Source: Vulcanisaeta distributa JCM 11217 (GTDB lineage Archaea > Thermoproteota > Thermoprotei > Thermoproteales > Thermocladiaceae). From it: DNA of 64,000 nt. Below are positions 33,299 to 63,604 of this stretch, one piece after another. The stretch is from positions 62,001 through 126,000 of the forward strand of contig NZ_BBBJ01000002.1 of the NCBI RefSeq assembly GCF_001316005.1, in the 5' to 3' direction. The position numbers and the translations under genes are program-made. Under the pieces are notes generated by a model. The model saw only the letters and a program-made list of their open reading frames with translations. It was not told where the DNA came from and made no database searches. Every line of letters starts with the position of its first letter. Positions within the stretch are counted from its first letter, which is position 1.

Positions 33299-33319
33299 GG
33301 ATATCTATCCTATCACCGT

Positions 33320-36218: not shown

Positions 36219-36243
36219 TGCGTTGTCCTAGGTAATCGCCGTT

Positions 36244-38100: not shown

Positions 38101-38118
38101 ATTTAATAACGAATTAAG

Positions 38119-38127
38119 TTTATATAA
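38119..38127 (+). promoter_or_regulatory. TATA box for cobalamin adenosyltransferase gene
   Basis: TTTATATAA lies 23-31 nt before ATG 38150 in the gap after the oxidoreductase stop. Confidence 0.6.
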
Positions 38128-38149
38128 TGATTATATGTGATTTGTGGCA

Positions 38150-38758: not shown

Positions 38759-38797
38759 AGACAGATTTATTAGCTAATAATTATTTGTAAATTATTA

Positions 38798-40472: not shown

Positions 40473-40513
40473 GGAAAGATTTTTAGGGCATGATTCACGT
40501 CTAGTGATGAGGT

Positions 40514-40912: not shown

Positions 40913-42234
40913 TGAGTGCAGGTATTAACGAGTTAATCGAGAGGGCGCGAAATTGGGATAAATCGGCCATAGCTAGGTTAATTACGTTAGCTGAGGATGG
41001 CGTTGAATTACCGCTAAGTATTCAACGTAGGAGTCACGTAATCGGCATAACGGGGGGGCCTCCAGGCTCAGGTAAGAGCACGTTAATTTACGCAATGGCT
41101 AGGAAAATACCCCAGGATAAGAGGATAGCCATTTTAACGATAGATCCCTCAAGCCCATTCACCGGTGGCTCCTTCATGGGTAATAGAATTAGGATGCAGG
41201 AGCTTACCTCAAGACCTAATATATACATTAGGAGTATGGCTACCAGGGGGGGTATTCGTGGTGGGCTTAATTATGCAACAATAGCTGCGGTGAACATACT
41301 TGAGTATGCCGGTGCGGATTACATACTCATCGAGACTGTCGGTGCTGGGCAGTCCGATACCGATGTTAAGTATGTGGCTGACACAATACTCGTCCTAGTA
41401 CCACCACTCTCTGGTGATGAAATTCAAGCGCTTAAGAGTGGTCTTATGGAGATTGGGGATATATACGTCGTTTCAAAGTCCGATAACCAAGCATCTGAAT
41501 CGACATATAGGGATTTATTAGCTATGGTTGACATGATGAGGGAGGTTAAGGGTGATTCCTGGAGACCTACCGTGGTTAAGGTGTCCGGTTTATATGGTTA
41601 TGGAGTTGATGAGTTGCTTAGGTTGATTGATGATAGGTTCAGGGAGTTGATTAATAATGGTAAATTGAATGAAACCCTAACTAGCAGGAGGTTACTTGAA
41701 ATGAGGCTTTACGCATATGACCTACTTGAGAAAAAGCTTATTGAAAGTAAGGAGCTTGAGAATGAAGTTATTAATGGCAAATTATCACCTCAGGAAGCCG
41801 CAAGGAGGTTATTAAGTATGGAGATGCCAAGGCTTGACCATGTGGCCATTGCGGTTAAAGACCTCAACAGCGCTGTTGAGAAGTTCAGGAGATTGGGGGG
41901 GCTTAAGGTTAGTGACCCTGTAATTGTTGAGGAGCAGGGGGGGGTTAAAGTCGTGATGGTGTGGCTTGGTAATACTAGGATTGAATTACTTGAACCACTT
42001 AATCCAAGTTCCACAGTGGCTAAGTTCCTGGAGAGTAGGGGGGGTGAGGGCATTCATCACATAGCCCTTGAGGTTGATGACTTGGATGAGTTCATTAAGA
42101 GGGTTCAGGAGGCAGGTCTTACACTTACTGGTAAACCAAGTAAAGGCGCTGAGGGTATAGTCACGTTCATACACCCAAAGAGCCTTAATGGTGTTCTCCT
42201 TGAGTTAGTTCAGCGTAAGGCTTTCAATGAGTGA
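40912..42234 (+). CDS. MeaB-type mutase chaperone GTPase fused to methylmalonyl-CoA epimerase
   Basis: Residues 1 to about 303 are MeaB/ArgK: P-loop GITGGPPGSGKST (the family has GITGPPGAGKST; a seven-G run adds one Gly), MATRGG, ETVGAGQSDTDVKYVADT, and the C-terminal LSPQEAARRLL. From about 304, MPRLDHVAIAVKDLNSAVEKF onward is a vicinal-oxygen-chelate epimerase with metal ligands His in LDHVAIAV, HHIALEVDDL and the terminal Glu in LLELVQRKAF. There is no linker; a Shine-Dalgarno-like GGAGGT precedes the internal ATGs at the junction, so a separate epimerase start is also possible. Runs at 41896, 41936 and 42038 add Gly. Confidence 0.88.
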   Translation: MSAGINELIERARNWDKSAIARLITLAEDGVELPLSIQRRSHVIGITGGPPGSGKSTLIYAMARKIPQDKRIAILTIDPSSPFTGGSFMGNRIRMQELTSRPNIYIRSMATRGGIRGGLNYATIAAVNILEYAGADYILIETVGAGQSDTDVKYVADTILVLVPPLSGDEIQALKSGLMEIGDIYVVSKSDNQASESTYRDLLAMVDMMREVKGDSWRPTVVKVSGLYGYGVDELLRLIDDRFRELINNGKLNETLTSRRLLEMRLYAYDLLEKKLIESKELENEVINGKLSPQEAARRLLSMEMPRLDHVAIAVKDLNSAVEKFRRLGGLKVSDPVIVEEQGGVKVVMVWLGNTRIELLEPLNPSSTVAKFLESRGGEGIHHIALEVDDLDEFIKRVQEAGLTLTGKPSKGAEGIVTFIHPKSLNGVLLELVQRKAFNE

Positions 42235-42269
42235 TCTTTAAATAATCTAGAGGTGCAGGTTCAGCTTGC

Positions 42270-44065
42270 GTGAAAAAGAGTAGGTCATTTGAGCGTGGCT
42301 ACACAATCGTGTTTAGAGGAGGGGGGGATTCAGTAAAGTATTCATTAATATTACTCACAATAATAGTTCCCTACTTAATGAGTCTATACGTACGTGAAAC
42401 AATAATTACGTACCTTAAGTCGTTAATTATTTACGGTGTGATGTTCCTATCAGTGCTTATAACCCTTAGGGCTATGGTCTCCATACAATCATATAGGGGC
42501 TTTGGTACAACGCTATCGCTATTTAGTACCGCGCTTGCAGTTATAGTCGACTTACTAATAACATTGGTTACTCATAAGTTTGTGGTTGGTTTTGGCGCAT
42601 TATCATTCGTCTTACCATTAAGTGCCATGATAATGGTGTTAAGGGGGGGCCTTGAACATAACGGAAACTCCATGAAAAAGTACATACTATACCACTGTAT
42701 ACCCTGCCGAGCATATTAATCATACAATTAATTTCATTCCTCATGATCGGCACAATAAGCCCTCTGAAATACGTGATTTTAGACCTGGCATTTTACACAT
42801 TCTCCTTCCTATTTATTTACTACGTAATTTTTAAGTTCGAGGCATCATATGGAGGCGTTGATATACTTAGGTTATTTAGTTCATACTTATATACGGCCCT
42901 CTTCGAGTACTCAGAGCCATTTGAGAGGGAATTGAGCAAGAGGTCTGTGATTAAAGACGTTAAGGTGCACCTATTCATGCTTAATCACGACAATAATGTC
43001 TATACAGTCACAATACCTGAGCTGCATGCCGGTCCAATAGCCAAGGTAGGCGGTGGCTATTTAATTAGCGACCTTGTTAACGAGTTAAGTCGCTATGTCG
43101 ACCCAGTGGTTTATATGCATGGTGTTGGTAGTCATGAGCTGGATCCGGCGACGAGGATTGATGTGCGTAGAGTGGTTAGGGCGGTGGCTAGTAAGGTTAG
43201 GGAGTATTTAAGTGGACATTACGTAAGTGATGAGTGCATTGGAAAGATGCCCATTCAGATACAAAGTCGTAACTTTAGGGTAACGCATATACCACTTTGT
43301 GAGCGGTCACTCGTGATTGTTAGTCGACTTATCAAGTCCAGTGACGATATTCCTCTTAATGTTTATGAGGAATTGAAAAAGAGAGTAAAGCTCAATTGGG
43401 ATAATGTAATATTAGTTGATGCTCAAAATTATTATTCAGATGATAATACGTGGGACGAGGACGACATTAACGAACTAGCATCGTTACTAAGTAAGATTGG
43501 GGGGGAATTGGAAGACCAAAGGCTCGAAGTAAGATCATGTGTAAATCACGTACCTAAGCACGCCTTTGGACCAATACAGTTTGAGATTGGTGATAATGGC
43601 TTAATAACATGGGGGGGCTTAGATATAAATGGTAAAAAAGTCCTGCTGGTTATATTTGATGGTAATAATCTAAGGAGGGAATTGGCTGATGCAATAATCA
43701 ATGAGTTTAAGGGTATTTTTGATATTGTCGAGGTCCTAACCACGGATAATCACCAGTACACGGGCATTGCCAGGTTCACGAGAAGTAGGGGGGGGTATAA
43801 GATCGTTGGTGATTCGATAAGCCATGAATTAATAATGAGAAATGTAAGGAGAAGTGTTAAGCATTGCCTCGGTAACCTGGCAATAACCCATGTGAAGTAT
43901 TACCCAGTCATTGTTGAGGGTGTTAGGTTGATAGGTGATTCATTTAATAACATGGTGAGGGCTGCTGAGAGGGGCACTATGGATTGGAAGAAGCACTTCA
44001 CAGTATTGATAATACTGCCGATACTAACGATGATGATCCTAGGAATAATACTCGGTATTCTTTAA
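42270..44065 (+). CDS. DUF2070 family membrane protein
   Basis: About 595 residues after joining two frames at 42692-42693 (CC for CCC, giving YPLYTLPSILIIQLISF). Six or so N-terminal membrane helices, a long soluble domain with PELHAGPIAKVGGGYLISDL and HGVGSHELDPAT, and one C-terminal membrane helix match the archaeal DUF2070 family as I remember it. The conserved His and acidic residues in the soluble part suggest a metal-dependent enzyme (inference). Start taken at TTG 42270. Confidence 0.7.
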
Positions 44066-44123
44066 TACTTAATAAATACAAAAGGTTTAATAGAGAGGTC
44101 TACGTGATTAATCAGGAAGGGAT

Positions 44124-44597
44124 ATGGGTTCCGAGGATCTAAAAAGGCAGGCAATAAGGGCTCACATAGTTGGATTAATAACCAGACTTGAGAATTGGGT
44201 TAAGGATCAGAAGAAGTTCATGGATGAACTGCAGAAGTACGGCGACTACATAGTGACCCAGGATAGGTTATCACTATTACTTTCAGCACAGGCAATGCTA
44301 TACTACATAGAAAGGACGCTCAAGGACTTCGAGTCCTGGTTAAACAACCCAATGATAACATCGATAATGCCTATAGACATGCTAAAGGAGTTGGAGGAGA
44401 GGCTTAGGGATATAGCAATTGAGTTCGTAAAGCTCGATATAGACCATACGAGCAAGTACGTGGATATACTCAAGAAAATGGAGAATGAGAATGAGATACC
44501 AGACATACTAAGGCTCTATATTGAGCAGAGGGGGGGTATTGTGCCGCAGAGGGGGGGTCAGCAGGGAGAGCAGGGTGAGGTACCGAGGTTCATGTAA
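44124..44597 (+). CDS. Conserved helical archaeal protein (possibly DUF2153)
   Basis: 157 residues, mostly alpha-helical and charged. LITRLENWVKDQKKFMDEL and LSAQAMLYYIERTLKDFESWL resemble the crenarchaeal DUF2153 family, recalled without a search. The Gln/Gly-rich tail has two seven-G runs (44530, 44550). It follows the DUF2070 gene. Confidence 0.5.
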   Translation: MGSEDLKRQAIRAHIVGLITRLENWVKDQKKFMDELQKYGDYIVTQDRLSLLLSAQAMLYYIERTLKDFESWLNNPMITSIMPIDMLKELEERLRDIAIEFVKLDIDHTSKYVDILKKMENENEIPDILRLYIEQRGGIVPQRGGQQGEQGEVPRFM

Positions 44598-44617
44598 TCA
44601 AATTAATACCATTTCCC

Positions 44618-44998
44618 TTATTTTTTCTCGCTAATTTCATTTAAATAATCCCTAATTATCTGAATAGCGTCCTTACCAAACATCTTAATTATTAAACCAA
44701 TATGCTCCCTAATTATCTCACTCTTAACCTCATACGGTATTGATAATTCATAGACGAACTGCCTAACGTTATTAATAACCTTCTCACGCTTATTAATAAA
44801 TCCCCCCCTGGTGTATAATCTGCTCAATACCGTGAGCACCGTGGTGTAGGCAGTCTTCCTACCCCCCCTCCTCGTCAACTCCTCCCAAATCGTCATTGCC
44901 GTAGCCTCCTTAAGCTCATTAAGTATGCCAATAACCTCAGCCTCAAGTGGTCCAATCATCAGTAGAAGCCTTCTTCTGCGCTCACTTTGCTCCATCAT
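44618..44998 (-). CDS. BlaI/MecI-like winged-helix repressor
   Basis: 126 residues. GPLEAEVIGILNELKEATAMTIWEEL and AYTTVLTVLSRLYTRGGF are the BlaI/CopY winged-helix signature. Such repressors act as dimers and respond to antibiotics or copper in bacteria; the archaeal target is unknown. It is convergent with the upstream helical protein. Two seven-C runs (44804, 44864) add Gly. Confidence 0.78.
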   Translation of the reverse strand: MMEQSERRRRLLLMIGPLEAEVIGILNELKEATAMTIWEELTRRGGRKTAYTTVLTVLSRLYTRGGFINKREKVINNVRQFVYELSIPYEVKSEIIREHIGLIIKMFGKDAIQIIRDYLNEISEKK

Positions 44999-45039
44999 GT
45001 GGATTTACACGTGTAGTTTTATAAACCTAACACACAGGT

Positions 45040-45887
45040 CTAAAACTTACCAACTTTAATATCTAGCCTAACCTTATACACATATGGAGCATAATCTCTA
45101 ACAATCCTCCTATTAATAACGTTACACTCATAACCCAATTCGCCACAATAACTCTTAACCAAGCTCTCAGCCTCGCCGTAGGGATTCTCCTCAGTACCTA
45201 GGTGATAGAAATGTATAATACCGCCATCTTTAACACACATTAATGATTGCTTAAGGAACCTATGGGCGCCCAAGGGAAGTGTTAGTATAACCCTATCAAC
45301 GTCGTGGAATAACCCATTAGCCTTGCAGCATCACCAAGCAGTGGTAATACCTTACCCTCAAGCCTATTTAACTTAATATTATCAAGCATGTAGTAGTAGG
45401 CATGCTCATTAAGCTCAATGGCAATCACCAACCTAACCAATGGTTGCGCCTTTAAAATGGCGATTGCGTAAGGACCGACACCAGCAAATGGGTATAAAAT
45501 AACCTCATTAGGCCGTACCTGCCTAGCAATATCCTCCCTATCACCCTGATCCCTAGGTGAGAAGTAAGCCTTAGTGGGATCCACCTTAATTAGGTAGTTG
45601 CCCTCTTTATGAATAACCTCCGTAGGTCCAGGAACCAGGGCTTCATACCTATACAGCCTAAACTCGCCCTCCCTAGCCCCCCCAATTCTCCTAAGCACGG
45701 TTTTAACATGCTTATTCAACTTGATTATTGCCTCACCTATCACGAACTTGTAACTCTCAAGCTCAGGTGGTATTTCAATAATGGCAATCGCGCCAGACCT
45801 AGAGCCAACTATGTCGAAACTCCTTGGTATTTTGTCCCAAAGCTCCCTAGGTATTAATGGCTTAACAACCTCCTTAAGTGTTGGCAC
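45040..45887 (-). CDS. trm5: tRNA (guanine37-N1)-methyltransferase Trm5
   Basis: Class I SAM enzyme making m1G37 (or the first step of wyosine). SFDIVGSRSGAIAIIEIP, VKTVLRRIGGAREGEFRLY, KVDPTKAYFSPRDQGDREDIA, PFAGVGPYAIAIL and TLPLGAHRFL are in family order. The frame breaks at 45313-45315 (CCC for CCCC, giving LMGLFHDVDRVILTLPLG). About 282 residues after repair. Start ATG 45887. Confidence 0.9.
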
Positions 45888-45984
45888 TACCTAATGATGA
45901 AGTGTGGGTGCACTTAAATTTGATTTAGTCCGCGGTGCCCGTGTAGAATAAAAATTAATAAGTGCTGTAAAACTCTGTAAATCG

Positions 45985-47424
45985 ATGAGCAAGATCATAG
46001 AGTCTGTACCAGGCATTGTGTCTTACAGTACGGTTAGGGAGGTTAAGGGCCCATTGATTGTTATCGAGAAGACTAGGGGGCGTCGCCTATAACGAGATTG
46101 GTGAGGTTACTGGGCCTGATGGTGAGCCGAGGATGGTTCAGGTAGTTGAGGTTGGTGATAATTACGCAGTTGCCCAGGTACTAACCGGCACGCTTGGTTT
46201 GCCGGCCAAGGGCAGTACTGTGAGGTTTTATGGGAGGACCCTTAGGATACCAGTTAGTGAGGATTTACTGGGTAGGGTACTCGATGGTAAGGGGGGGCAG
46301 CCTAGGGATGGATTGCCACTACCGCCTGCTGAGGAGTACCTGGACATAAATGGCGAACCACTCAATCCATATGCCAGGGAGTACCCTGAGGAACCAATAG
46401 AGACTGGTGTCAGCGCAATTGATGGGTTAAACACCATGGTTAGGGGTCAGAAGTTACCTATATTCAGTGGCACGGGGGGGCTTCCGCATAACATGCTTGC
46501 TGCCCAAGTCGCTAGGCAGGCAACGGTTAGGGGGGGTCATGAGGAGGAGTTCGCAATAATCTTCGCGGCAATGGGCCTTAAGTCTGAGGAGGCTCTATTC
46601 TTCCTTAATGAGTTTAGAAGGACCGGTGCATTGAGGAGGTTGGTCATGGTTTTAAACCTGGCTAGTGACCCAATTGCGGAGAGGATATTAACACCAAGGA
46701 CTGCATTAACAATCGCTGAGTACCTGGCATGGTACAGGGATTACCACGTACTCGTCATACTAACGGACATGACAAACTACGCAGAGGCTCTTAGGGAGTT
46801 GTCATCATCAAAGGGTGAATTGCCTGGTAGGCGTGGTTACCCAGGTTACATGTACACGGACTTCGCGACTATTTATGAGAGGACTGGCAGGGCTAAGGGT
46901 AAGAAGGGTAGTATTACCCAGTTCCCAATACTCACGATGCCTCACGACGACATAACACACCCAATACCAGACCTGACCGGCTACATAACTGAGGGTCAAT
47001 TAGTGCTTAGTAGGTCACTATGGGGTAAGGGCATTTACCCACCGTTTGATGTGATAATGAGCCTATCGAGGCTCATGAAGGACGCGGTTGGTGAGGGTAA
47101 GACGAGGGATGACCATAAGTACGTGGCTAACCAATTAATTGCTGCTACTCAAGGGCGTTGGACGTTAGGAACCTAGCCCTACTCGTTGGTGAGACCAACC
47201 TGAGCTGGCGTGAGAGGAGGTACCTTAGGTTTGCTGAGCAGTTTGAGCGTAAATTCATCAACCAGGGCTATTACGAGAGGAGAACCTTTGAGCAGACACT
47301 CGATATTGCTTGGGATGTTATTAGTATATTACCTGAGGATGAATTAACGAACGTACCACCCGACATATCCAAGAGGTATTATAGGCGTTCAATATTTGAG
47401 TCCATAAAGGACGTGGGCGCATAA
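45985..47424 (+). CDS. atpB: A/V-type ATP synthase subunit B
   Basis: Non-catalytic regulatory subunit of the A1 head. [23 protein letters not shown], the [18 protein letters not shown] region (family: GSGLPHN), [42 protein letters not shown] and [26 protein letters not shown] are diagnostic. Breaks at 46076-46080 (five G for four, giving [12 protein letters not shown]) and 47153-47155 (GGG for GGGG, giving [15 protein letters not shown]). Seven-G runs at 46289, 46473 and 46529 add Gly. No other ATPase gene is adjacent. Confidence 0.94.
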
Positions 47425-47523
47425 AATTAGCACTTTGTAAATAATGTTAATTCCTTCGATCGAAGATACTTACATAGTTCACGGCAGAGAATCTTAATAA
47501 ATCCTGTAATTATCTAATTCTCC

Positions 47524-47737
47524 ATGCCAAAGACTAAGGCGAAGGAAAAGATGGTGCTGATAAGCGTGCACATACCCAAGCAAATGCTTGAGGAGCTAGA
47601 TGAATTCGTGAAGCAGGGAATATTCCCCCAGCAGGAGCGAGGCAATTAGAATAGCAATAAGGGACTTGCTCTATAGGGAGAATTCGAGAAGCAAGACGCA
47701 GAATGTGGAGGATCTAATATTATTACCTGGTAGGTAA
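47524..47737 (+). CDS. Small ribbon-helix-helix (CopG-type) regulator
   Basis: A 71-residue gene visible only after repairing 47625-47629 (five C for four). MVLISVHIPKQMLEELDEFV then FPSRSEAIRIAIRDLLYRE is a textbook RHH fold: a basic strand, two helices and the conserved SRSEAIR turn. It probably binds DNA as a dimer. It stands alone between the ATPase subunit and ubiX, in a gap of about 460 bases otherwise empty of genes. Confidence 0.8.
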
Positions 47738-47887
47738 TGATAAGTATGACCGTAGTGAGATCAATAAAAATAATAAAATGCAACGATCAATTACTTCTTT
47801 TAAAATAATTTTATATAAGAGTATATATTATACATAGTTAATACACTTAGACATTAACGTTATTTATAGGCTCTCCTTAATAATGAT

Positions 47888-48468
47888 GTGAGGAGAATAA
47901 TAGTGGGCATAACAGGGGGGGCAAGCGGCGTTATTTATGGCGTTAGGTTTCTGGAGATGGTTAAGAAATACGCAACAGACTCAGAGATACATCTCATTGT
48001 GAGTAATACAGCAATTGGCATATTAAAGTACGAGGTTGGGCTTGATAAAGCATCATTATCAAAATTCGCCGACAGAAGCTATGACGAAAATGAATTAGAC
48101 GCACCAATAGCCAGCGGTTCGTTTAAGCATGATGGTATGGTAATCATTCCCTGCTCGATGAAGACCTTGGCATCCATAGCCCATGGAATAACAGATAACC
48201 TAATCACTAGGGCGGCCGATGTGGCGCTGAAAGAACGGAGAAAGTTAATCTTAGTAATTAGAGAAACGCCGCTCAATTTAATACATATTAAGAACATGGA
48301 ATTGGTCACGTTGGCCGGCGCCATTGTAATGCCCGCAGCCCCCCCGCGTTTTATAATAGGCCGAGGACTATTGATGATATGGTGAACTTCATAGTTGGTA
48401 GGGTCCTTGACCTACTGGGTATTGAGAATGACCTTTACAGGAGATGGAGCGGCTACCCCAGTGAGTAG
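47888..48468 (+). CDS. ubiX: UbiX-like flavin prenyltransferase
   Basis: Makes prenylated FMN for UbiD-type decarboxylases. [21 protein letters not shown] is the FMN-binding start; the family has GITGASG, and the seven-G run at 47921 adds one Gly. [20 protein letters not shown] and [20 protein letters not shown] are diagnostic. The frame breaks at 48339-48345 (seven C for five, giving [17 protein letters not shown]). GTG start. No ubiD is in the window. Confidence 0.9.
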
Positions 48469-48514
48469 CATAGTAATTTAAGAATGGGTTTGTTAAAACG
48501 GTATCAATAGGATT

Positions 48515-49657
48515 ATGGATGTTCCAATGTGCACGAGGTGCGGCAGGAGACCAGCAAACTACTATAGGGTATCCAGTGGTGAGAGGCTTTGTCTCAACTG
48601 CCTGTTTAAGTCTATTGAGGATACTGTGCTTTGGACTATTAGGAGGTATCGATTAATAAGTGATGGTGATAAGGTTGGTATCGCGATAAGTGGTGGTAAG
48701 GATAGCCTGACCCTAATGTACCTACTGGGTAAGTTTAGGAGGCAGGGCAAGATACCTAGGGATGTTGAGTTAATAGCGTTTAGCATTAATGAGGGTCATC
48801 CCTATAGCTGTTTTTATAGGATGGCTAGGGTTGATTATGTGCAGAAATTGAGTGAGGAATTCAACATACCCTATAGGGTATACACCTTCAAGGAGTTATT
48901 CGGTGTAACCGCCAGTGACGTGGCGCATGGCCTATGGTCCAGGGGGGGTATTAATGTGCACATGTGCACAATAGATGGCGTGTTAAGGCGTAGGGCAATG
49001 AACATAATTGGTCGTCAACTCGGTCTAACGAAGATAGCCACTGGGCACAACCTGGATGATGAAGCTCAGACAGTATTACTTAACGTACTTAGCAATGACT
49101 TAGATAGGTTTGCGTGGTTCGGCCCAAGGCCGGAGGTGGATAGGGAGGGTTTCATACCAAGGATTAAGCCCCTTCGCTTCGTTAGGGAGGAGGAGATCGC
49201 GATATATGCCTATTATCACGGGATACCGCTAATGGAGCTTGAGTGCCCCCCCTTCGTATATAGTAACCCTAGGTATGAGCTTAAGTTCACACTTGCCCGC
49301 TGGGAGAGGGATAACCCAAATATTAAGTATTCCCTGGTATCCTTCGGCGATTCACTAGCAAACCTAATGGGTGAGAAGGCTGTGAATGTGCCACTAAAGA
49401 GGTGTAGGTACTGTGGTGAACCAACATCAAGCGATGTGTGCAGGGTTTGTGAATTAATGAATAGGGCAGGTTTATTGGAGAAGTACCTGAATCATTTAAG
49501 GACTCTGAAACTTATAGATACGCAATCCCCCCCTCGTAGCTCTTACCCACGGCCTCAACATTACTCTTTAGGATCTGTGATAGGAATCCCGTGTAGTACT
49601 CAATCATTAATTCCTCCATTACGTGCTTATCATTCAATTCGGAACAGGACCTTATAG
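48515..49657 (+). CDS. NcsA/TtuA/Ctu1-type tRNA 2-thiouridine synthase
   Basis: PP-loop ATPase with N-terminal zinc finger (CTRCGRRPANYY, LCLNCL), AISGGKDSLTLMYLL, central Cys in HMCTIDGVLRRRAMN, ATGHNLDDEAQTVLLN and a C-terminal zinc finger (CRYCGEP, CRVCELM). It thiolates U34 or U54 of tRNA. The 3' end is uncertain: with seven or four C at 49527 the frame runs to 49657, overlapping the convergent ACT gene by 146 nt; with five it stops near 49540. Confidence 0.87.
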   Translation: MDVPMCTRCGRRPANYYRVSSGERLCLNCLFKSIEDTVLWTIRRYRLISDGDKVGIAISGGKDSLTLMYLLGKFRRQGKIPRDVELIAFSINEGHPYSCFYRMARVDYVQKLSEEFNIPYRVYTFKELFGVTASDVAHGLWSRGGINVHMCTIDGVLRRRAMNIIGRQLGLTKIATGHNLDDEAQTVLLNVLSNDLDRFAWFGPRPEVDREGFIPRIKPLRFVREEEIAIYAYYHGIPLMELECPPFVYSNPRYELKFTLARWERDNPNIKYSLVSFGDSLANLMGEKAVNVPLKRCRYCGEPTSSDVCRVCELMNRAGLLEKYLNHLRTLKLIDTQSPPRSSYPRPQHYSLGSVIGIPCSTQSLIPPLRAYHSIRNRTL

Positions 49658-50210
49658 TAATGGTTCCATTCCTTTCAATTAATACGACCTTGCCTAACCC
49701 CCCCCTGAACTGCCCAATCTTAATTAGCTCACCGAGATTGCTATTACGTAGGAGTGAAGCATCGTAGGCTCCAAGGTCCCTAACTATCCTCCTAAACTCA
49801 GGGTTTGTTAATAAGTCCTTAACCCTCTCAAGTTCCACCACCAGCACTTGCTTATCCCTGAAGGTGGGCATTATCATTGACGGTACCATAAAGGCCTCCT
49901 TCTCAACAATCCTATACCTAACCCACTCAACGAAGGAGAATTTCTTCAATTCCTTCTCCAGGTCATTTAATGATGTGTCCATGTTTGTGAGGTCAACAAC
50001 GAAGTGCAGGAGTAATTGTGTCCTATTGACTGATATGTTGAGTATGTTTATTCCGTGATCAGCGAAGACGTTGGATAGGGCAGCGAGTATTCCCGGCTTA
50101 TCTGCGGTGAACTTAATTAGGAATTCGCCAAGTACCTTGTCCTTACCCTCAAATGACATTGCAAAGTCCCTATACAATACCTCCACAAGCAACCCCCCCC
50201 AAGAAGCCAT
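49512..50210 (-). CDS. ACT-domain protein
   Basis: 232 residues. EFLIKFTADKPGILAALSNVFADHGINILNI is an ACT domain, which usually binds amino acids and regulates enzymes. The remaining 150 residues are conserved-looking but unrecognised (RRIVRDLGAYDASLLRNSN). Runs of eight at 50193 and 49698 and of seven at 49527 add Gly. An inner Met in MSFEGKDKVLGEF may be the true start. Confidence 0.65.
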   Translation of the reverse strand: MASWGGLLVEVLYRDFAMSFEGKDKVLGEFLIKFTADKPGILAALSNVFADHGINILNISVNRTQLLLHFVVDLTNMDTSLNDLEKELKKFSFVEWVRYRIVEKEAFMVPSMIMPTFRDKQVLVVELERVKDLLTNPEFRRIVRDLGAYDASLLRNSNLGELIKIGQFRGGLGKVVLIERNGTITIRSCSELNDKHVMEELMIEYYTGFLSQILKSNVEAVGKSYEGGIAYL

Positions 50211-50337
50211 GGTTTAAAAACTTATTTGCTATGTAATTCACGAGATATATCCAACGTTGGTTCACGTATTATTGCGCAACATGGATGAGTTATCTTTTAA
50301 AGGTGCTCTGAAGTTAGGTGTTGGGACCTCTATTGGT

Positions 50338-52773
50338 ATGGAGTTTAAACCAAGCTTCAGGAGAAGAGATGGGACATTTCAAAGGAGATAGAGTTGTTAA
50401 GGAAGTGGGAGGAGGAGGGCTTGTTTGATATCAATATTGACGAGAAGAGACCAACACTAGTAATTGATACGCCACCGCCATACCCATCAGGGAGACCCCA
50501 CATAGGCGGCATAGCGCATTATGCACAGATTGATATGATTGCCAGGTTCTTCAGGATGAGGGGTTACAACGTGATATTCCCATTCTATGCCGATAGGAAT
50601 GGATTGCCTGTTGAGGTTCAGGTGGAGAAAACGTATGGCATAAACATGTATGAAGTGCCCAGGGAGAAATTCCTCGAGCTGTGCAGGAGGTTCCTTGATG
50701 AATATGAGGGTGAGTTCGTGAGTATATTTAGGCGTTGGGGGGGCGGTTCCTTCAGTTACTGGAGGAATGGCACGGACAGTGAGGAGTACAGGAGAGTTAC
50801 GCAGGAGACATTCATTAACCTATGGAATAAGGGCTTGATTTATGAGACAAGTAGGCCAACACTATGGTGTCCAAGGTGCAGGACCGCATTAGCTGAGGCT
50901 GAGGTTGAGTATAGGGAGGAGGACTCATACCTAAACTACATTAAGTTTAGGGTTAAGGAGACGGGTGAGGACATAATCATAGCGACCACAAGGCCTGAGT
51001 TATTACCGGCCACGGTGGCCGTCGCCTTCAATCCAGGTGATAGTAGGTATAAGAGATTGGAGGGCCTGCACGCCATTGTTCCTCCGTTAAACCAGGAGGT
51101 TCCCATTGTGGCGCATCCATCGGTTAAGCCTGACTTTGGCACGGGCCTTGAAATGATAAGCACGTTTGGCGATACCAGGGATTTGATGGTTGTTAATGAG
51201 TTGAAACTACCCATGAAGATCGTGGTTAATCCAGACGGTACATTAAATGAGTTAGCTGGCAAGTATAGGGGGGGCTGAATGTTAGGGAGGCTAGGGAAGT
51301 GATAATTAAGGACCTCCAGGAGCTGGCCTGCTCGTTAAGAGGGAGCCTCTTAGGCACACAATACCAATTTGCTGGAGGTGTAAGACGCCGATAGAGATAA
51401 TAGTGACTAAGGAGTACTTCCTAAAGCAGCTTCAGTTTAAGGATGAATTAGTAAGGCTTGTGCAGAATGAGATGATTATTAAACCACCTGAGTATGCACA
51501 AACACTAATTGATTGGATTAAGTCCCTTGAATTCGACTGGCCAATATCGAGGCGTAGGTACTACGGCACTGAAATACCGATTTGGTACTGCATTGATGAG
51601 GAGGGTAATGCAAAGCCCATTGTTCCAAAGCCAGGTAAGTACTATAGGCCGTGGAAGGATGATCCACCACCTGAGGTTAAGGAGCAGTGCCCAAGCGGTA
51701 AGTTGGTGGGTGAGGATAGGGTGTTGGATACCTGGTTTGATTCATCAATATCCTGGATTTACGCCACGGGTTATACCAAGCCTAATATAAGGGTCTTTGA
51801 GAAAGTCTACCCACACAGCATACTTAGGCCTCAGGGCTATGACATAATTAGGACTTGGCTATACTACTCTGTGGTTAGGGCATACCTACTCTATGGAAAG
51901 CCACCCTTCAAGTATGTAAGGATAAGCGGTATGGGACTTGACGAGAAGGGTGAGGCCATGCATAAATCCAAGGGCAATATAATAGATCCAATACCACCTG
52001 TGGAGAAGTACGGCGCGGATGCGGCGAGGTTCTGGGCTGCGGCGTCCGCAAAACTCGGTAGTGATTATAGGTATAGTGAGCAATTGATAAGGACGGGTCA
52101 CGACTTCGCGGTTAAGTTATGGAATATTGCTAGGTTCGTTTCGTCATTCCCCGAGGTTAATGACAACTATGAATTAACACCCCTTGACCTAATGATACTG
52201 GCTAAGTTGAATGAGGTTGTCAGGGACTCTTTAAATGCGTATAATGAGTTCGATGTTTACGTACCTGCCAACACGCTTTATGACTTCGCATGGCATGTCT
52301 TTGCTGATCATTACCTCGAGGCCGTTAAGTCAAGGGCCTATAATAGGGATGGCCTATTCACGGAGAGGCAGCAAAGAGGTGCCTGGTTCACTTTGTATAA
52401 GGTCCTAAAGACGGTGCTTAAGCTTCTTGCGCCCATAATGCCCTTTGTGACGGATCAAATATGGAGGAGCTTATACGGCGAGTCGATACATAGGCAGTTA
52501 ATTGAGGATCCAGACCCAAGATTCGACAATAAGGAATACCTTAATATGCTTGAGCCATTCATGGAATTCAACAGGGCAATATGGACGTATAAGAATAAGG
52601 CTGGTTTAAGCCTTAATGAGCCCATTGAGGGAGTCATATACGCACCCGAGGTCCTTAAGCCCCTGGAGATTGAGCTAAAGGCTATGCATAAGATTAGGGA
52701 GATTAAGTTCGGAAAGCCTGTTGGAAACTACGAAGTATTGGATGAGTCATTGCCAGTATACCTTGTTAAGTAA
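50338..52773 (+). CDS. valS: Valyl-tRNA synthetase
   Basis: Class Ia synthetase. DTPPPYPSGRPHIGG carries the HIGH-like motif, FPFYADRNGLPVEVQVEK, editing-domain ATTRPELLPATVAVAFNP, and MHKSKGNIIDPIPPVEKYGAD carries KMSKS-like residues. The anticodon domain ends at 52773. Breaks: 50352-50353 (AA for AAA, giving KPKLQEKRWDISKEIELL), 51268-51274 (seven G for five, giving KYRGLNVREAREVIIKDL) and near 51321 (G for GG). A seven-G run at 50738 adds Gly. About 810 residues after repair. Confidence 0.92.
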
Positions 52774-53889
52774 TTTTTCGATAAAATAGTAGCGCCGCCC
52801 CGATAATTACTAATACCATTGATGTAATACCTATAATTAGTAGTGTTTCTGGGAAGTTGTAATATTGAAGTAGAAAACCAATTACGTATGGTGATACTGA
52901 ACCACCTAATTGACTCATGAAATTGAGGAATCCACTGGCTGCTCCAATGTTCGGTGCTAGCTTGATATTGCTATTGAGGGTGCTGCATAGAAGCCGTAGA
53001 AGAAGCCCAGAAGTAACATTAGGAAGGCCAGCAGGTATATAATTGATAGCCTAGGTATAACCGAGACTATAATCGCCAACAGTAATGAGGATAAGATACT
53101 CGGCAATGCATACCCCACCTTATCGCCCATGTACCCACCAATCACCGCACCAATAGACCCCCATTATGGACGCCAGGAAGGCATAGAAGCCGCTAAGCGA
53201 TGGTGAAACCTTAAGTACGTGAACAACGTAGTAAGTTGACCAACTGAGGAAGCCGAGGTATGAGAAGCCCGAGGACAGCCTAATGAAGCCCATACCCAAT
53301 ATCCTAAGGTCACCAGGGCCTATGTAAATGGTACTACTAACCCTACCGCTCCTTGGAACCCTAGTCACTAGTATTGCTGATAAGATGACTATGATTGAGA
53401 AGGTGATGAACGGCGCAAATGTATTTGTCGAGAATAATAGTGGTGACACCATTATCGAGATTGATGATGCCAGGAAAAACATGCTCTGGTAAATACCAGC
53501 GCCAAGACCTCCCCTACTATAGTTTGATAAAACCATGCTTATTAAGGCCACATAGGTCACTGCGAGTAACGAACCCATAACAAACTGAATAACCAACAAT
53601 AGGTAGTATTGATCAATAATAACTGGGTAAAGAGCATTAATTATTGAGATTAATATTAAAACATAAATCACAATGTTATATCCATACCTATCGACCATTA
53701 AACCACCGATTACCTGGAAAATCGTGTAACCCACCCAAAGCGATGAGACTATTAAACCCCCCCATCACTGTGTTAATGCCATTTAGCCCTATTAGGTATG
53801 GTAGTAGTGATGGTATGGAGAACCTCACGAGTACAACGGAGAAAAAGGCTAGCGATGCTATCAGCACTATTGCCAGTCCCCCTCTCCAT
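52766..53889 (-). CDS. Major facilitator superfamily transporter
   Basis: About 373 residues with roughly eleven or twelve hydrophobic helices. GGLMVDRYG is the MFS loop-2/3 motif A and GGYMGDKVG its repeat in the second half. Breaks: 53878-53882 (five C for four, giving the start MERGLAIVLIASLAF), 53757-53763 (seven C, the next frame reads GGLIVSSLWVGYTIF), 53158-53162 (five C for four, giving MGSIGAVIGGYMGDK) and near 52965 (one A short). It overlaps convergent valS by 8 nt. Substrate unknown. Confidence 0.78.
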
Positions 53890-53945
53890 TCATATTACCG
53901 TCCATAGAAGGGTTAATAAATGCTTAATTTTACCACGCCAATGCT

Positions 53946-54224
53946 ATGGCGGAGGTATACCTCGTTTACAGAATAACACCGAGCAAATCAGACATTAATT
54001 ACGAAATATTAAAGAGCGAGATAAAGAAGGCGCTTGAGCCTAAGTATAAGGTTGATAAGGTTGAGGAGGAGGACATAGGCTTCGGCATTAAGGCGCTCAG
54101 GGTCTACATAAGGATGCCTGAGGAATCTGAGGAGCACTCAAGCGATGAGGTTGAGAACATACTAAGTGGTATTGAGGGAGTTGGTAGTATTGAGCTTGAG
54201 TACTTCACTAGGCTGGGCTTTTAA
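53946..54224 (+). CDS. ef1b: Elongation factor 1-beta (aEF-1beta)
   Basis: 92 residues, nucleotide exchange factor for aEF-1alpha. The ferredoxin-like fold shows [20 protein letters not shown] at the start and [17 protein letters not shown] in the middle, ending [14 protein letters not shown]. Length matches archaeal proteins. Frame intact, single gene with its own short upstream gap. Confidence 0.92.
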
Positions 54225-54277
54225 TGCCTGAATTAAATACAGGTCAGTGAAAACTAATAACGCAATAAGTTTTTTAA

Positions 54278-56526
<2,249 letters not shown>

Positions 56527-56577
56527 GGGATTAAAAATAAAACATTCCTTATCAGGGGCAGTCTTGGTTAAGAAAAT

Positions 56578-56805
56578 ATGAGGAGACCTGTACCCATTGA
56601 GGCTTTGATTATGGACTTAATAAGGGATAAGGGCGACATGTGGTTTAATGACTTAATGCAGGCATTGAGAGCTTGGTATCCGGATGTTACGGAGAAGGAG
56701 GTCTTAACGGCACTAATGAGGCTTGAGCTCAGTAGGTTAATAATAGTTCAAAAGGTTGTTAGGAAGGATGGAGCCACGTACCACATAAGAATCGTTAAGG
56801 ATTAA
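56578..56805 (+). CDS. Small winged-helix-like hypothetical protein
   Basis: 75 residues. PIEALIMDLIRDKGDMWFNDLMQALRAW followed by EKEVLTALMRLELSRLIIVQKVV and a basic strand pair looks like a minimal winged helix. It sits 51 nt after cdc48 and 50 nt before FEN1, so it might be co-transcribed with either. Function not recognised. Confidence 0.55.
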   Translation: MRRPVPIEALIMDLIRDKGDMWFNDLMQALRAWYPDVTEKEVLTALMRLELSRLIIVQKVVRKDGATYHIRIVKD

Positions 56806-56855
56806 TTAGGGAAAGAGATAAAGGTAGCCCTTACTATATTAATTGGGTTACCTAA

Positions 56856-57912
56856 ATGGGTGTTACTGAGCTTGGTAAGTTAATACCAGACAGTGTTAGA
56901 AAGACCGTAGAATTCACGCAATTATCAAATAGGATAGTGGCGCTAGACGCTTATAACGCTCTTTATCAATTCCTAGCATCGATTAGGCAGCCAGATGGCA
57001 CACCACTCATGGATTCCAAGGGGGGGAGAATAACAAGCCACTTAAGTGGTTTGTTGTATCGAACAATAAACTTCCTCGAGAATAGGATATGGCCTATATA
57101 CGTATTTGATGGTAAACCACCCGAGGAGAAGACCCTGGAGATCGCGAGGAGGAGGAAGGTTAGGGAGGAGGCCATGGATAAGTGGGTTAAGTTGCTTGAG
57201 GAGGGTAAGAAGGAGGAAGCTAGGAAGTACGCGCAGAGGGCGTTATTCCTAACTGACGATATGGTTGAGGATGCAAAGAAGTTACTGAGGTTAATGGGCA
57301 TACCGGTGGTTCAGGCGATGGCTGATGGCGAGGCGCAGGCGGCCGTGATAGCCAGGGAGGGCAAGGCCTGGGCTGCAGGTAGCCAGGACTATGACTCATT
57401 ACTGTTCGGGGGGGCGCCCAGCTTGTTAGGAACCTCGCCATAACAGGGCGTAGGAAGTTGCCGAATAAGGATGAGTATATCGAGATTAAGCCCGAGATAA
57501 TAGAGCTCAATGAAGTTCTTAAGGCGTTGAAGCTTAGGGATAGGACGCAGTTAATAGACTTGGCGATACTCCTCGGGACTGACTTAAATCCTGATGGGGT
57601 ACCGGGTATTGGGCCGCAGAGAGCCCTTAGGCTAATTCAGGAGTTTGGTAATCTCGAGAAGTTACTTCAGGGCCCATTAAAGAATGCGCAATTCCCAACG
57701 GACCCACTGAAGATACGCGACTATTTCTTAAACCCGCCATATAATCCGAATTATAAAATAGAGTTTGGGCAGCCCGATGAGAGGGGGGCATAATCGAGTT
57801 CCTGGTTCATGAACATGATTTCAATGAGGAAAGAGTTAGGAACGCGATCGAGAGGTTGAAGAAGGCCATGGGTAAGAGGAGGGAGTCAACTCTTGACTCA
57901 TTCTTTGGCTAA
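56856..57912 (+). CDS. fen: Flap endonuclease 1
   Basis: Removes 5' flaps in Okazaki fragment maturation. LGKLIPDS and [12 protein letters not shown] at the N-terminus, [39 protein letters not shown] (family LLFGAP; seven-G run at 57407 adds Gly), [21 protein letters not shown], and the PCNA-binding tail STLDSFFG. Breaks at about 57425 (G for GG, giving [10 protein letters not shown]) and 57783-57788 (six G for four, giving [14 protein letters not shown]). The stop is TAA 57910-57912. About 350 residues. Confidence 0.95.
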
Positions 57913-57954
57913 TCCATTGGTGGGTTAATCTTTAAATAATCAAGGTCCTTAACC

Positions 57955-59161
57955 ATGCTGGGTATTTACATGAAGCCAGTATTATCGATAATTAGTTCAC
58001 CGCTTAGTTGGGTATCGAGTATAGTATCATCTGCGATTCAGTTACTTTATTCAATAATTCAATACATACTAACAAGGCCTGAGGTTAACATACCATTCCT
58101 ATGGCCAATAATAAACTTCCTGAATCAAGTACCTGTGATAAACATAATAGTTCACCTAATACTCTGGAGACCAATTTTCGATTTACTCTTTGTGCCGGGC
58201 CTTGTCTCGGTTCTGATAGCCCTAATATTCATAATATGGTTCGAGAGAAAGTTAACGGCTAAGGTGCAATGGAGGATTGGGCCCCTTGAGGTTTCGAGAA
58301 GCATAGGCGGTTTCCTACAGCCTTTTGCCGATTTGTTTAGGTATACGTTTCAGGAATTCGTAGTTCCCCTACAGGCTGATAAGAATTACTTCATCTATGC
58401 GCCAGCGATAGTATTTATACTATCAACACTGCCCGTCTTCTTTATACCGATAGGGCCCATGCAGACTAATAGCGTTGTTAATGGGATCTACGGCGTGTAT
58501 ACGGGCTATGACGTATTAATAGCGATAGCCCTGGTGACACTATTCAACGTAGGCATAATACTAATTGGCTGGGCCAGTAATGATAGGTTCACGTACATAG
58601 GCACCGTAAGAGAGGCACTGCTTTACACTGGTTATGAGGTGATCCTAATACTATCAGTCGTTGCGATACTCCTCATTTACGGGACTGCAGACCCATTTAA
58701 GATAGTTAATTGGCAGGTAACGCACCTACCGGGTATAATAGCAAACCCACTGGCCTTCCTGGCCTTCCTAATAGCCACGCTCATGGCAACCTCAAGATTC
58801 CCCCTTCGAAATACCCGAGGCTGATACCGAGATAGTACTCGGGCCGTACACTGAATATAGCGGTATTGTCTACGGCCTAGTCATGACCATGAGCTATGAA
58901 AAACTATATGTACTTAGCATGCTAATGGTCCTATTGTTCCTAGATGGTTGGGCAGGACCATACATACCACCACTTGGGGGGGCTTTATCATATGCAATAT
59001 GGTTTGGTATAAAAACATACATAGTAATGATGGTAATGGTATTCACGAGATCCGTATACGGCAGGTACAGGCCTGACCAGGCGCTGAGAATGAGTTGGTC
59101 ATCATTACTCGGGTTAGTAATGGCTGCCTTACTACTCTCCCTCGCAATTAAGGTTTTCTAA
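57955..59161 (+). CDS. nuoH: NADH:quinone oxidoreductase subunit H-like membrane protein
   Basis: Eight-helix NuoH/HyfC family. WFERKLTAKVQWRIGP, RSIGGFLQPFADLFRY and the signature FPFEIPEADTEIVLGPYTEYSG are present. The frame breaks at 58800-58804 (five C for four), exactly in that signature. A long N-terminal extension with an extra hydrophobic segment precedes the family core. No other complex I or hydrogenase genes are adjacent, so the partner subunits are elsewhere. Confidence 0.9.
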
Positions 59162-59323
59162 TTATTTTAAATTTAAATAATATTCGGTTAAAAATTAATT
59201 ATAATAGAAATATTTTAGGGAAATACTCATTAAGTCATTAAAAACATCTTCATTAATAGCTCAATCCATTAACAATTAGACTAACCACTAAATTAATAAG
59301 GAGGCTTTCCAGGACTCAAGACA

Positions 59324-59530
59324 ATGGTCATCTGCCCCGTATGCGGTAAGGAGTATGCGAACTCTAGTTCGTTGCTAAAGCATGTTAAATTGAAGAGTAA
59401 GTACGACCCAATGCACATGGCCTTTTGGCTCGAGTTCCAAAAGTACATAAGCACGCCAAGGGAGGATTGGGCAATGCTGACGAAGACGGATTTATTCAGG
59501 GAGTTCCTTCGTGAGAAGGGACTTCTTTAA
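59324..59530 (+). CDS. Small zinc-finger protein
   Basis: 68 residues. CPVCGKEYANSSSLLKHVKLKS is a C2H2-like zinc finger, with a His about eight residues later (PMHM) as the probable last ligand. A helical tail follows. Such one-finger proteins are common in crenarchaea and may bind nucleic acid. An AT-rich gap of about 160 nt precedes it. Confidence 0.6.
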   Translation: MVICPVCGKEYANSSSLLKHVKLKSKYDPMHMAFWLEFQKYISTPREDWAMLTKTDLFREFLREKGLL

Positions 59531-59599
59531 AACTATTGATAAACACTACATCACTAACTTAACTAATAACCTAATTAATAACGCATTACCAACAATCCC

Positions 59600-59974
59600 G
59601 TGGTTAAGAAAAGAGTTAAGGGAATTATCCAGGAGGCACTCGATTATCAATTAAATTGGCCGATTAAGCTAAGGGAGTTATCAATAAGGCTTCAGGATAA
59701 ATCGTATAAGACGGCCCAAGAGGCAATTAAGCTATATGTCAATGGATTATTGAGCAAGGACGCAGTCATAGAGATAGTAAGGTTAAGCGGTGTCTCATTG
59801 AGTAAGTACGTAAATCCTAGGAGGTACCTGGTTTATGATGGCAATGATGAGGTGGTTGAGAATATGGATGACGTAGTTATTAATGAGTTTGATGAGGTTG
59901 GTGATGATGTTAAGGAGGTTGAGGAGGAGTACGTTGGTCAAAGAATCATTAAGAGGTTGATGGGTAATGATTGA
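59600..59974 (+). CDS. Hypothetical protein with acidic tail
   Basis: 124 residues. The first 75 residues are basic and helical (QLNWPIKLRELSIRLQDKSYKTAQEAIKLYVNGL); the last 40 are strongly acidic (FDEVGDDVKEVEEEYV). It overlaps the next gene by 8 nt, so both are translated together. No family recognised. Confidence 0.55.
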   Translation: MVKKRVKGIIQEALDYQLNWPIKLRELSIRLQDKSYKTAQEAIKLYVNGLLSKDAVIEIVRLSGVSLSKYVNPRRYLVYDGNDEVVENMDDVVINEFDEVGDDVKEVEEEYVGQRIIKRLMGND

Positions 59975-60365
59975 CGAGTTAATACGTAGGTATGGGAGGT
60001 ACATGGGAGGAATAGATTATGAGAAGGTGCTAAATGACATAATTAGTGAGGAGGATAGGCTTAGGGAAATAGAGAAGAGACTAATAGGCATCGAGACCGG
60101 GCAGCAGATGAATTACGAGAAATTGAGGGAACTTGAGAGGAGACAATTAATCCTAAAATACGTAGAACTAAAGAATCAGGAAAGGAGCATGCTCGAATTA
60201 ATTAAGGAACTGAAGCTAAGGGGATACACAAAAACCGAGGTAACAAAGGCAATAAGGAAACTAAGAAGGATAAGAAGGCAAATACGCATAATAAAGCAGG
60301 AATTAAAACCAATCAATGAGGAATTCACAAACGCAACAAAAGGCTTAAAAAACCGACGTATTTAA
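59967..60365 (+). CDS. Hypothetical coiled-coil protein
   Basis: 132 residues, nearly all charged helix (EEDRLREIEKRLIGIET, LRELERRQLILKYVELKNQE), with a very basic C-terminal half ending KGLKNRR. It could be a coiled-coil DNA- or RNA-binding partner of the acidic upstream protein. It ends 10 nt before the tRNA gene. Confidence 0.55.
   Translation: MIDELIRRYGRYMGGIDYEKVLNDIISEEDRLREIEKRLIGIETGQQMNYEKLRELERRQLILKYVELKNQERSMLELIKELKLRGYTKTEVTKAIRKLRRIRRQIRIIKQELKPINEEFTNATKGLKNRRI
60344..60353 (+). promoter_or_regulatory. TATA-like box for tRNA-Glu
   Basis: CTTAAAAAAC lies 23-32 nt before the tRNA 5' end and inside the 3' end of the preceding gene. Spacing fits an archaeal tRNA promoter. Confidence 0.35.
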
Positions 60366-60375
60366 TGATTAACGA

Positions 60376-60456
60376 GCCCCCCCGGTCGTATAGCCCGGTC
60401 AAGTATGCGGGCCTCTCGAGCCCGTGACCCGGGTTCAAATCCCGGCCGGGGCACCA
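60376..60456 (+). tRNA. tRNA-Glu (CTC)
   Basis: Cloverleaf by eye: anticodon stem CGGGC/GCCCG with loop CTCTCGA gives anticodon CTC; T arm CCGGG-TTCAAAT-CCCGG; 3' strand CCGGGGC, discriminator A and an encoded CCA at 60454-60456. The 5' strand should be GCCCCGG, but the sequence has G followed by seven C (60377-60383) and GG. This is three C too many and leaves the acceptor stem unable to pair over seven base pairs with the normal 5' end. No intron. Confidence 0.9.
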
Positions 60457-60588
60457 ATTTTCAATTTATAATCCCTTATGTAATCCTTGATTAACTAATT
60501 ATCATCTTAAGCGAGGTGGCACTGCGTACATAGACGTAGAAATAATATAATTCAATTAAGTTCTTATCATATGAGCGTTCCATGAAAA

Positions 60589-60597
60589 GTTTAAAAT
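60589..60597 (+). promoter_or_regulatory. TATA-like box for the saccharopine-dehydrogenase-like gene
   Basis: GTTTAAAAT lies about 26 nt before GTG 60619 with AAAAGT upstream as a weak BRE, consistent with a leaderless transcript. Confidence 0.5.
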
Positions 60598-60618
60598 TCA
60601 TCGCCTGCTCGTTATCTC

Positions 60619-61729
60619 GTGGTTTCAATTGGTGTTGTTGGTTTGGGTCCTATGGGTCGTGCGATTGCTTATTACTTGGTTAGGCATACTGGTCATGTTG
60701 TTAATGGTTATGACATCAGTGATGAGGCTATCAATGAGGCTAGGCGGCTTGGCGTTAACAATGCCGTTAAGGCTGATATCAGTAATTATGAGGATTTAAG
60801 ACGCATCGCCAATAATAATGACGTAATCATCAGCGCAGTTCCACAGTCAATAGCTGACCAAGTAGTCCTTGGACTTCATGAGTTTGGTAAACCCATTATT
60901 GACCTAATATTCATGTGGAAGTATAATGAGGATTTAGCACGTAAGTTGAGTAGTGGATCCATTATTATCCCAGCCTGTGGCTGGGCTCCTGGTCTAACTA
61001 ACTTGCTAGCCATGGCAGCGGCCAGTGAGTTAGAGAGGGTGGAGGAGGTTGGTATTCACGTTGGTGGTAATCCTGTTGATCCAAAGCCACCGCTTTATTA
61101 CGAGCTCCTCTTCTCCCTTGAGAGTACGGTTGATGAGTACGTTAGGCCTGCAACAATCATTAGATGGTAAGGTAGTCAATGTTGAGCCACTTACGGAGAT
61201 CTTTGACTTCAGCACTTGGCTTGTTGAGGGCGAATTCGCGGAGTTCTACACTGATGGTCTAAGCACGCTATTAATTACATTACCCAAGTACTTCAGGACC
61301 TTAAGAAACGCCTACGAGAGGACTATTAGGTGGAGGAAACACTTGGATGCAGTGAGGGCTCTCAGGGAATTAGGACTTTTGAGTGATTTTGAGACAGCTA
61401 AGTACATCTTCTCTAAGTTATTGAGGCCAGGGACTAATGACTTCTCAATAATGGTTGTTGAGGCGAGGGGTGAATTAAATGGTGATAAGGCAATCGTTAG
61501 GTTCGAGGGTGTTGATTATGCCCAGGGAGGCTTCACATCAATGGCTAGGCTCACGGGCTTCACAGCAGCCATTGTGGCGGACCTAGTGGCCAAGGGCGAG
61601 ATAAAGGGCGAGGGGTTAACACCAATTGAGGAGGCGTACATGAGGAATAAATCCATACTAAACCAAGTAATAAACGCATTAAGGAAAGAGAACATAAAAA
61701 TATACAAAACAAAAACAATGATAGAATAA
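60619..61729 (+). CDS. Saccharopine dehydrogenase-like oxidoreductase
   Basis: Rossmann NAD(P)-binding start VGVVGLGPMGRAIAYYLVRH, then VIISAVPQSIADQVV and CGWAPGLTNLLAMAAASEL, and a catalytic/C-terminal domain ending with SMARLTGFTAAIVADLVAKGEIKGEGLTPIEE. These match the Lys9/saccharopine reductase superfamily, which in archaea also contains dehydrogenases of lysine or unknown metabolism. The two halves join near 61163, where a dinucleotide is missing (ATIIRDGKVVNVEPL). About 370 residues. Confidence 0.8.
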
Positions 61730-61797
61730 TAAATAAATTATATATTGGACAATGATAAAACTTAAATTTTTTATTTATTTAAAAATGAATCTTTAAT

Positions 61798-63604
61798 ATG
61801 ACCTCGAATGCTCAATCTCAGGTTCGACTTAGGAGAGCTTTAACCGTGACTGATTATTTCATGTTGGCATTTACGGGTATGGTTGGTAGTGGTTGGTTGT
61901 TTGCGGCATTAGGTGCTGCTGGTGCAATGGGGGGGCCAGCATCACTCCTCTCTTGGATAATAGCTGGCGTGTTCTTTATATTCATGGTATTTCCCTTCGC
62001 GGAGCTTGGCGGTCTCTTCCCATTTAGTGGTTCTTTAGCTAGGTATAACCATTATAGTCATGGCACGATCAGTAATTACTTATTGGCTTGGGCATATACG
62101 TTGGGTGCTGTTACCACCGTTAGTGTTGAGGCGGTGGCTATCGTCGAATATGCCAGTTACTATGTACCGCAGTTTTGGAATTCGTCCATTGGGGTATTAA
62201 CACCACTTGGTTTAGTCGTAGCGGCATTGTTAGTTTTGGTCTTTCTTGCGATTCAATTAATTGGTGTCAATGTCTATGGTTGGTTCAATAGGTTCATAAC
62301 CGCCTGGAAAATATTGATACCCGGCTTAACAATAATATTGCTAATCGCATTATACTTTCACCCGGATTATGTAATTGGTAAGTTACCAGGTGGTTTTGTA
62401 CCGTATGGTTACTCGGCGGTCTTTGCTGGTATGATTACTACAGGCATTGTTTGGGCATATGAAGGGTTTAGGCAAGGTCTTGAATATGCCGGTGAAGGCA
62501 AGAATCCGCAGAGGGATGTACCGTTAGGTACCATACTTGCATTGATATCTGCAATAATACTTTATATATTACTTGAGATTGCATTTATAGGTGCGATTAA
62601 TTGGAAAGCAGCTGGTGTAGAGCCGGTAATTGGCAAGCGCTCGCATCAAGCAGTTGGCAAGCTCATCCATTCGCCAGTGAGGCTATGGCAACTGGAATAC
62701 CGATATTAATGGGTCTCGCCATATTGCTTTTAATTGATGCTGTCGTTTCTCCCGCAGGCACATTAGCCGTTTATGTCGGAACCAGCGGTAGGAACATATA
62801 CGGTATGTCCAGGGTTGGTTACATACCTGAGTTCTTCTCAAGAATACATAGGAGGTTTCAAACACCCTGGATAGCCTTATAATCGCCGCAGTAATAGGCA
62901 TAGCGTTTATGGCGCCATTCCCAACGTGGTATGCGATAATGTCTTATTCGTCAGTGATGACCATTTATGGATACTTACAGGTCGGTGTAACTAATCATGC
63001 ACTTAGGAAATTAGCTCCTGATATAAAGAGGCCATTTAACCCACCTGCTTGGTACATCTTCTACCCACTTAGCTTCATTGTTGCGTCATTGCTTATTTAT
63101 TGGTCTGGCTGGTCCTACGTCAATGCAATAATAGCAGGCGTCATACTTGGGTTCCCACTATTAATTCTTGGTCCGTATAGGTCAGAGATTAAATTAACAC
63201 GTGCGGCATCGGTAATATTTGCAGTGGTTTACTGGGTGATTTCATCATTATTAATCGCTGGTTGGTACCTGAACTGGTTTACTGGTCTGGGCGTGATTGG
63301 TTCATTCGCTGTTTATTGGACGCTAATCTCCCTAGTTCAAATACTGAGTTTGCTCTATCTATGGTTTAGGTCGAGGCATCCTGATGTTAAGGCAGCCTTC
63401 TGGGTACCAATATATAATGTGTTGCTGGGTATAATATCATACGTAGGCTCGTTAGGTCCATTATCAACGCCGTTAATACCATATCCATGGGACTACGTAA
63501 CATTCGCAATACTAAGCCTAGTGGTCTACTTCATAGCCGTAAACCTAGCCTATGAAACAAAGGATCTAAAGCAGGTAAAGGAGAAGGGATTACCAATAGA
63601 ATAA
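61798..63604 (+). CDS. APC-superfamily amino-acid permease
   Basis: About 600 residues with roughly twelve to fourteen hydrophobic helices. FTGMVGSGWLFAALGAAGAM is the conserved first-helix motif, GLFPFSGSLARYNHY helix 3 and YEGFRQGLEYAGEGKNPQRDVPLG helix 6 and following loop. Probably imports amino acids with H+ or Na+. Breaks at 62625-62626 (GG for GGG, giving GVEPGNWQALASSSW) and 62875-62876 (CC for CCC, giving PWIALIIAAVIGIAF). A seven-G run at 61929 makes MGGPASLL for MGPASLL. Confidence 0.9.

Follow-up and report, generated by a model that had tools for sequence, protein, structure and literature searches.

The tRNA-Glu gene and its acceptor stem

The window analysed here, a stretch of 64,000 nucleotides from the draft genome of Vulcanisaeta distributa JCM 11217 (G000; 19 contigs, 2.08 Mb, 67% completeness), contains a gene for tRNA-Glu with anticodon CTC. 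The gene is written as G CCCCCCC GG ... CCGGGGC A CCA, with the single A at 60453 and the CCA at 60454-60456 (Table 1). According to the preliminary description, the 3' strand CCGGGGC calls for four C on the opposite strand, and seven are present. This is borne out by comparison with related genomes, since four C are found in all six unaffected orthologues whose complete 5' end was read.

Despite the surplus bases, the locus is recognized as a tRNA: ARAGORN predicts tRNA-Glu(CTC) at 60379-60456, and Rfam family RF00005 matches positions 60379-60453 with 50.7 bits, above its gathering cut-off of 29. The RF00005 alignment reveals that the acceptor stem as written lacks the full seven pairs, its first position being C opposite C. 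A covariance-model comparison of four with seven C, proposed in the preliminary description, was made with natural four-C genes instead of an edited copy. These score higher, namely 57.9 bits for the orthologues in G002, G008 and G005 and 60.9-63.7 bits for those in G010, G001, G004 and G006, and their acceptor stems pair completely. In G002, G008 and G005 the upstream flank is the same as in G000 and the gene body is identical; what sets the G000 gene apart, as written, is its 5' acceptor strand, which is three C longer. The orthologue in a second Vulcanisaeta genome, G003, again has seven C; there both arms of the stem are inflated, as opposed to one arm in G000.

Table 1. Features of the window and their coordinates
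Feature	Position	Strand	Basis
G/C runs of length seven (n = 106) or eight (n = 8), coding and non-coding	488..61935	.	window run count
G6 run, coding, frame-breaking; G008 has four	36671..36676	+	alignment to G008
G5 run, coding, frame-breaking; G008 has four	37618..37622	+	alignment to G008
G5 run, coding, frame-breaking; G008 has four	46076..46080	+	alignment to G008
C5 run, coding, frame-breaking; G008 has four	53158..53162	+	alignment to G008
C5 run, coding, frame-breaking; G008 has four	53878..53882	+	alignment to G008
C5 run, coding, frame-breaking; G008 has four	58800..58804	+	alignment to G008
tRNA-Glu (anticodon CTC), 81 nt including three surplus C	60376..60456	+	sequence, ARAGORN, Rfam
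Inflated C7 run of the 5' acceptor strand	60377..60383	+	seven C where the stem needs four
3' acceptor strand CCGGGGC with G4, uninflated in G000; G7 in the G003 orthologue	60446..60452	+	

G and C runs in coding and non-coding sequence

The run in tRNA-Glu has many counterparts. G/C runs of four, five, six, seven and eight bases occur 60, 19, 8, 106 and 8 times in the window, respectively, while first- to third-order Markov models predict only about 4-10 runs of seven by chance. The spectrum thus has a gap at four and a peak at seven with nothing beyond eight, whereas A/T runs are distributed normally, the longest being six. Another 400 kb of G000 display the same shape of spectrum, likewise without any G/C run above eight, and the whole genome contains 3,857 G/C runs of exactly seven.

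To follow individual runs, G000 was aligned with G008, a relative with a complete genome; the two are 84% identical across 100 kb. Of 1,057 three-base G/C runs of G008, 1,045 still have three bases in G000; the remainder are shorter and none was lengthened. Four-base runs behave differently: in G000 they are three, four, five, six, seven and eight bases long in 3, 43, 11, 2, 74 and 1 cases, so that 74 out of 134 changed from four to seven. Five-base runs appear with five, six, seven and eight bases (2, 1, 4 and 2 cases). A/T runs are nearly unchanged in the same alignment. In the control pair G002/G008, all 52 four-base runs are identical in length.

Hence insertions are limited to homopolymers, and among these G/C runs of at least four lengthen, while runs of three and A/T runs do not. 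The preliminary description spoke of a +3 step, which holds in so far as the change from four to seven is the commonest one. The step nevertheless varies; +1, +2 and +4 also occur and break the frame in coding sequence. The rule is that G/C runs of at least four are drawn to seven or eight, +3 being merely the most frequent step. Flanking bases had little or no strong effect on inflation, the fraction of runs reaching seven being about 0.5-0.7. Among orthologous sites that are four or seven in both G000 and G003, 26 are seven in both, five are four in both and 27 are discordant; agreement at the level of sites is not beyond chance (Fisher P = 0.76).

The effect is blind to frame and function. 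Whereas 72 coding four-base runs became seven in G000, 13 of the 86 lengthened ones (about 15%) became five or six and break the frame, six of them inside the window (Table 1). The effect is therefore more than a tolerated in-frame +3, and the frame-breaking runs are a likely reason for the low completeness of G000. In 23S rRNA of the same genome, four-base runs have four, five, seven and eight bases in 12, 8, 22 and 1 cases, 13 of 17 five-base runs became seven (n = 7) or eight (n = 6), and three six-base runs became eight. The fraction reaching seven does not differ between 23S rRNA and coding sequence (Fisher P = 0.59). Among 30 tRNA genes of G000, 22 of 42 G/C runs of at least four are seven or eight long, and stems of tRNAs for Thr, Arg, Phe, Asp and Glu have seven or eight bases on one strand versus four to six on the opposite one. 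The preliminary description argued that selection for in-frame changes is not the cause, a tRNA having no reading frame, and that some process acts on the run itself. Both statements stand, the tRNA supporting them and 23S rRNA doing so even more strongly.

Two further RNA loci of G000 deserve mention. A tRNA at G000:C8:66642-66729 (L025) contains G8, G7 and C8 runs and is read by ARAGORN as "Stop(tta)", an anticodon that is probably mis-registered through the inflated runs. The 23S rRNA gene at G000:C10:131-2166 (L145, L146) lies near a contig end and lacks its first part, and a search of G000 for a 16S match retrieved none; an assembly gap therefore appears to interrupt the rRNA operon.

Distribution among archaeal genomes

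Seven-base G/C runs were counted in 41 genomes, comprising G000 and its relatives. A spike is present only in G000 (3,857), in G003 (4,803) and in G020 (7,958), a member of another genus. The remaining Vulcanisaeta genomes (G001, G002 and G004-G011) have 0-5 such runs each, and two further genomes of the genus of G020 have 43 and 119, compared to its 7,958. G003 matches the draft of Vulcanisaeta distributa JCM 11216 (BBBI, NZ_BBBI01000019.1) and G020 that of Thermocladium modestius JCM 10088 (BBBF, BBBF01000022.1); totals obtained via the named drafts BBBI and BBBF are identical with those of G003 and G020. The excess thus tracks the data source and not phylogeny, with two Vulcanisaeta and one Thermocladium affected and their congeners not.

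The screen was extended to about 800 archaeal genomes overall, and G000, G003 and G020 are the only ones with the effect. None of 398 genomes of the same phylum exceeds about 340 seven-base runs except G000 and G003, and 394 genomes of a second archaeal phylum yielded no clear case, with a maximum of 905. The top candidate there, G648, was rejected, its spectrum falling smoothly as that of a simply GC-rich genome. A 16S pattern with seven G matched 13 contigs in a collection of named genomes, including BBBF01000022.1 and NZ_BBBI01000019.1; the other 11 belong to genomes without a comparable excess of seven-base runs.

Two of the compared genomes show peculiarities of their own. G002 (L097-L100; 63% completeness) has no G/C spike and carries some A/T runs of seven to eight that are largely absent from other genomes, perhaps a different homopolymer artefact. 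G003 (L081-L092) shares only about 83% identity over aligned DNA with G008 (L101-L120), which is equal in length to the published genome of the V. distributa type strain (2,374,137 bp; PMC3035369). Judging by this divergence, JCM 11216, filed as Vulcanisaeta distributa, is probably a different species.

Origin of the extra bases and its consequences

Whether the cause is technical or mutational was left open in the preliminary description. The relatives with four C, the damage to rRNA and tRNA genes and the tie to drafts from a culture collection whose accessions form one series decide in favour of a technical one. We therefore attribute the three extra C, with a probability of roughly 95%, to a base-calling or consensus error in a homopolymer-prone data set, most likely a flow-based one (Ion Torrent PGM). 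The feature is almost certainly not biological.

Mutation could in principle have a similar outcome. A real process expanding G/C runs of at least four in affected strains, for example through defective slippage control, would account for an effect that is specific to runs, blind to frame and independent between sites, as slippage is. Yet it would wreck 23S rRNA as well as a large number of tRNA stems, in which often a single strand is affected, and it would have to stop at a peak of seven with nothing above eight while sparing A/T runs and runs of three. Moreover, two of the three affected genomes come from one accession series and represent two genera, and the other Vulcanisaeta have hardly any seven-base runs. 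Such a process is very improbable, and we find it barely conceivable that true hypermutation of G/C runs of at least four to about seven takes place in certain cultured Thermoproteales and is tolerated even in rRNA and tRNA. That selection merely tolerates in-frame +3 insertions, with the tRNA as a coincidence, would agree with the predominance of the frame-keeping change from four to seven, but is refuted by 23S rRNA, where share and step are the same as in coding sequence, and by the coding runs of five and six described above; its chance is negligible.

Another reading is that the tRNA is functional as written, either with an alternative 5' end or through a tiny intron, as both ARAGORN and Rfam still predict a tRNA starting at 60379. 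This start, however, leaves the first pair unformed, congeners sharing the flank carry four C and score higher, and the G003 orthologue is inflated in both arms; three bases are too few for an archaeal bulge-helix-bulge intron. We consider a functional variant practically excluded. A different question is where the technical error arose. It may stem from the assembler, for instance from consensus calling by Newbler, or from another platform, and not from Ion Torrent base calling. Newbler 2.8 was indeed used together with Ion Torrent PGM for another draft of the JCM programme (PMC3961731), but a sister draft from the same accession series as the affected ones, BBBK01000000 of V. souniana JCM 11219, is reported as Ion Torrent PGM data (PMC9872577), and an origin outside Ion Torrent base calling appears unlikely. 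Illumina and Nanopore data were later produced for the V. souniana strain (AP026830; 2,432,148 bp; PMC9872577); G010, also of 2,432,148 bp, has five seven-base runs. Since BBBK is so documented, and in view of the JCM programme, we infer that BBBF and BBBI were likewise obtained on Ion Torrent PGM.

Under the technical explanation, the assembly would derive from flow-based sequencing, presumably on Ion Torrent PGM. G/C runs of at least four would be over-called, mostly to seven or eight and at each site independently, while three-base runs, and A/T runs of any length, would be read correctly. A software step that acts only from length four upwards might be responsible, and our guess would be homopolymer recalibration or flow-signal handling. 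In Ion Torrent software, homopolymer recalibration was applied from a threshold length of four, which would fit this reading. We found no published description of an Ion Torrent change from four to seven restricted to G/C. The pattern resembles flow-based homopolymer errors (Ion Torrent PGM, 454) in that insertions occur in homopolymers only, ignore frame and function and are bound to a data set, not to a lineage. Usual flow errors are mostly +/-1 and rise with run length for all bases; G000 differs in being affected only at G/C runs of at least four, which mostly land on seven or eight.

Drafts of the affected kind are unsuited to the study of G/C runs. In these assemblies false bases number in the thousands, reading frames are broken and tRNA and rRNA genes are distorted, and public genome collections use them to represent their species. 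A one-line screen can recognize them: seven-base G/C runs outnumber four-base ones while A/T runs are normal. Including them in surveys of run length or of G-quadruplexes can give misleading results. One G-quadruplex survey has T. modestius JCM 10088 among the genomes tabulated by motif density (PMC7565180), and unusual GnNiGn repeats were described in this strain, in Thermogymnomonas acidicola JCM 13583 and in Methanogenium cariaci JCM 10550 (PMC8044849). The latter repeats resemble our case in abundant G-runs in distant archaea from a common culture-collection source, T. modestius being the affected G020; they differ in having been reported as a sequence feature and in their longer runs (n > 7). 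Some published archaeal G-quadruplex outliers may share the cause of the artefact, T. modestius being the one compared here. As for the living organism, its tRNA-Glu is almost certainly ordinary, with an acceptor stem GCCCCGG/CCGGGGC.
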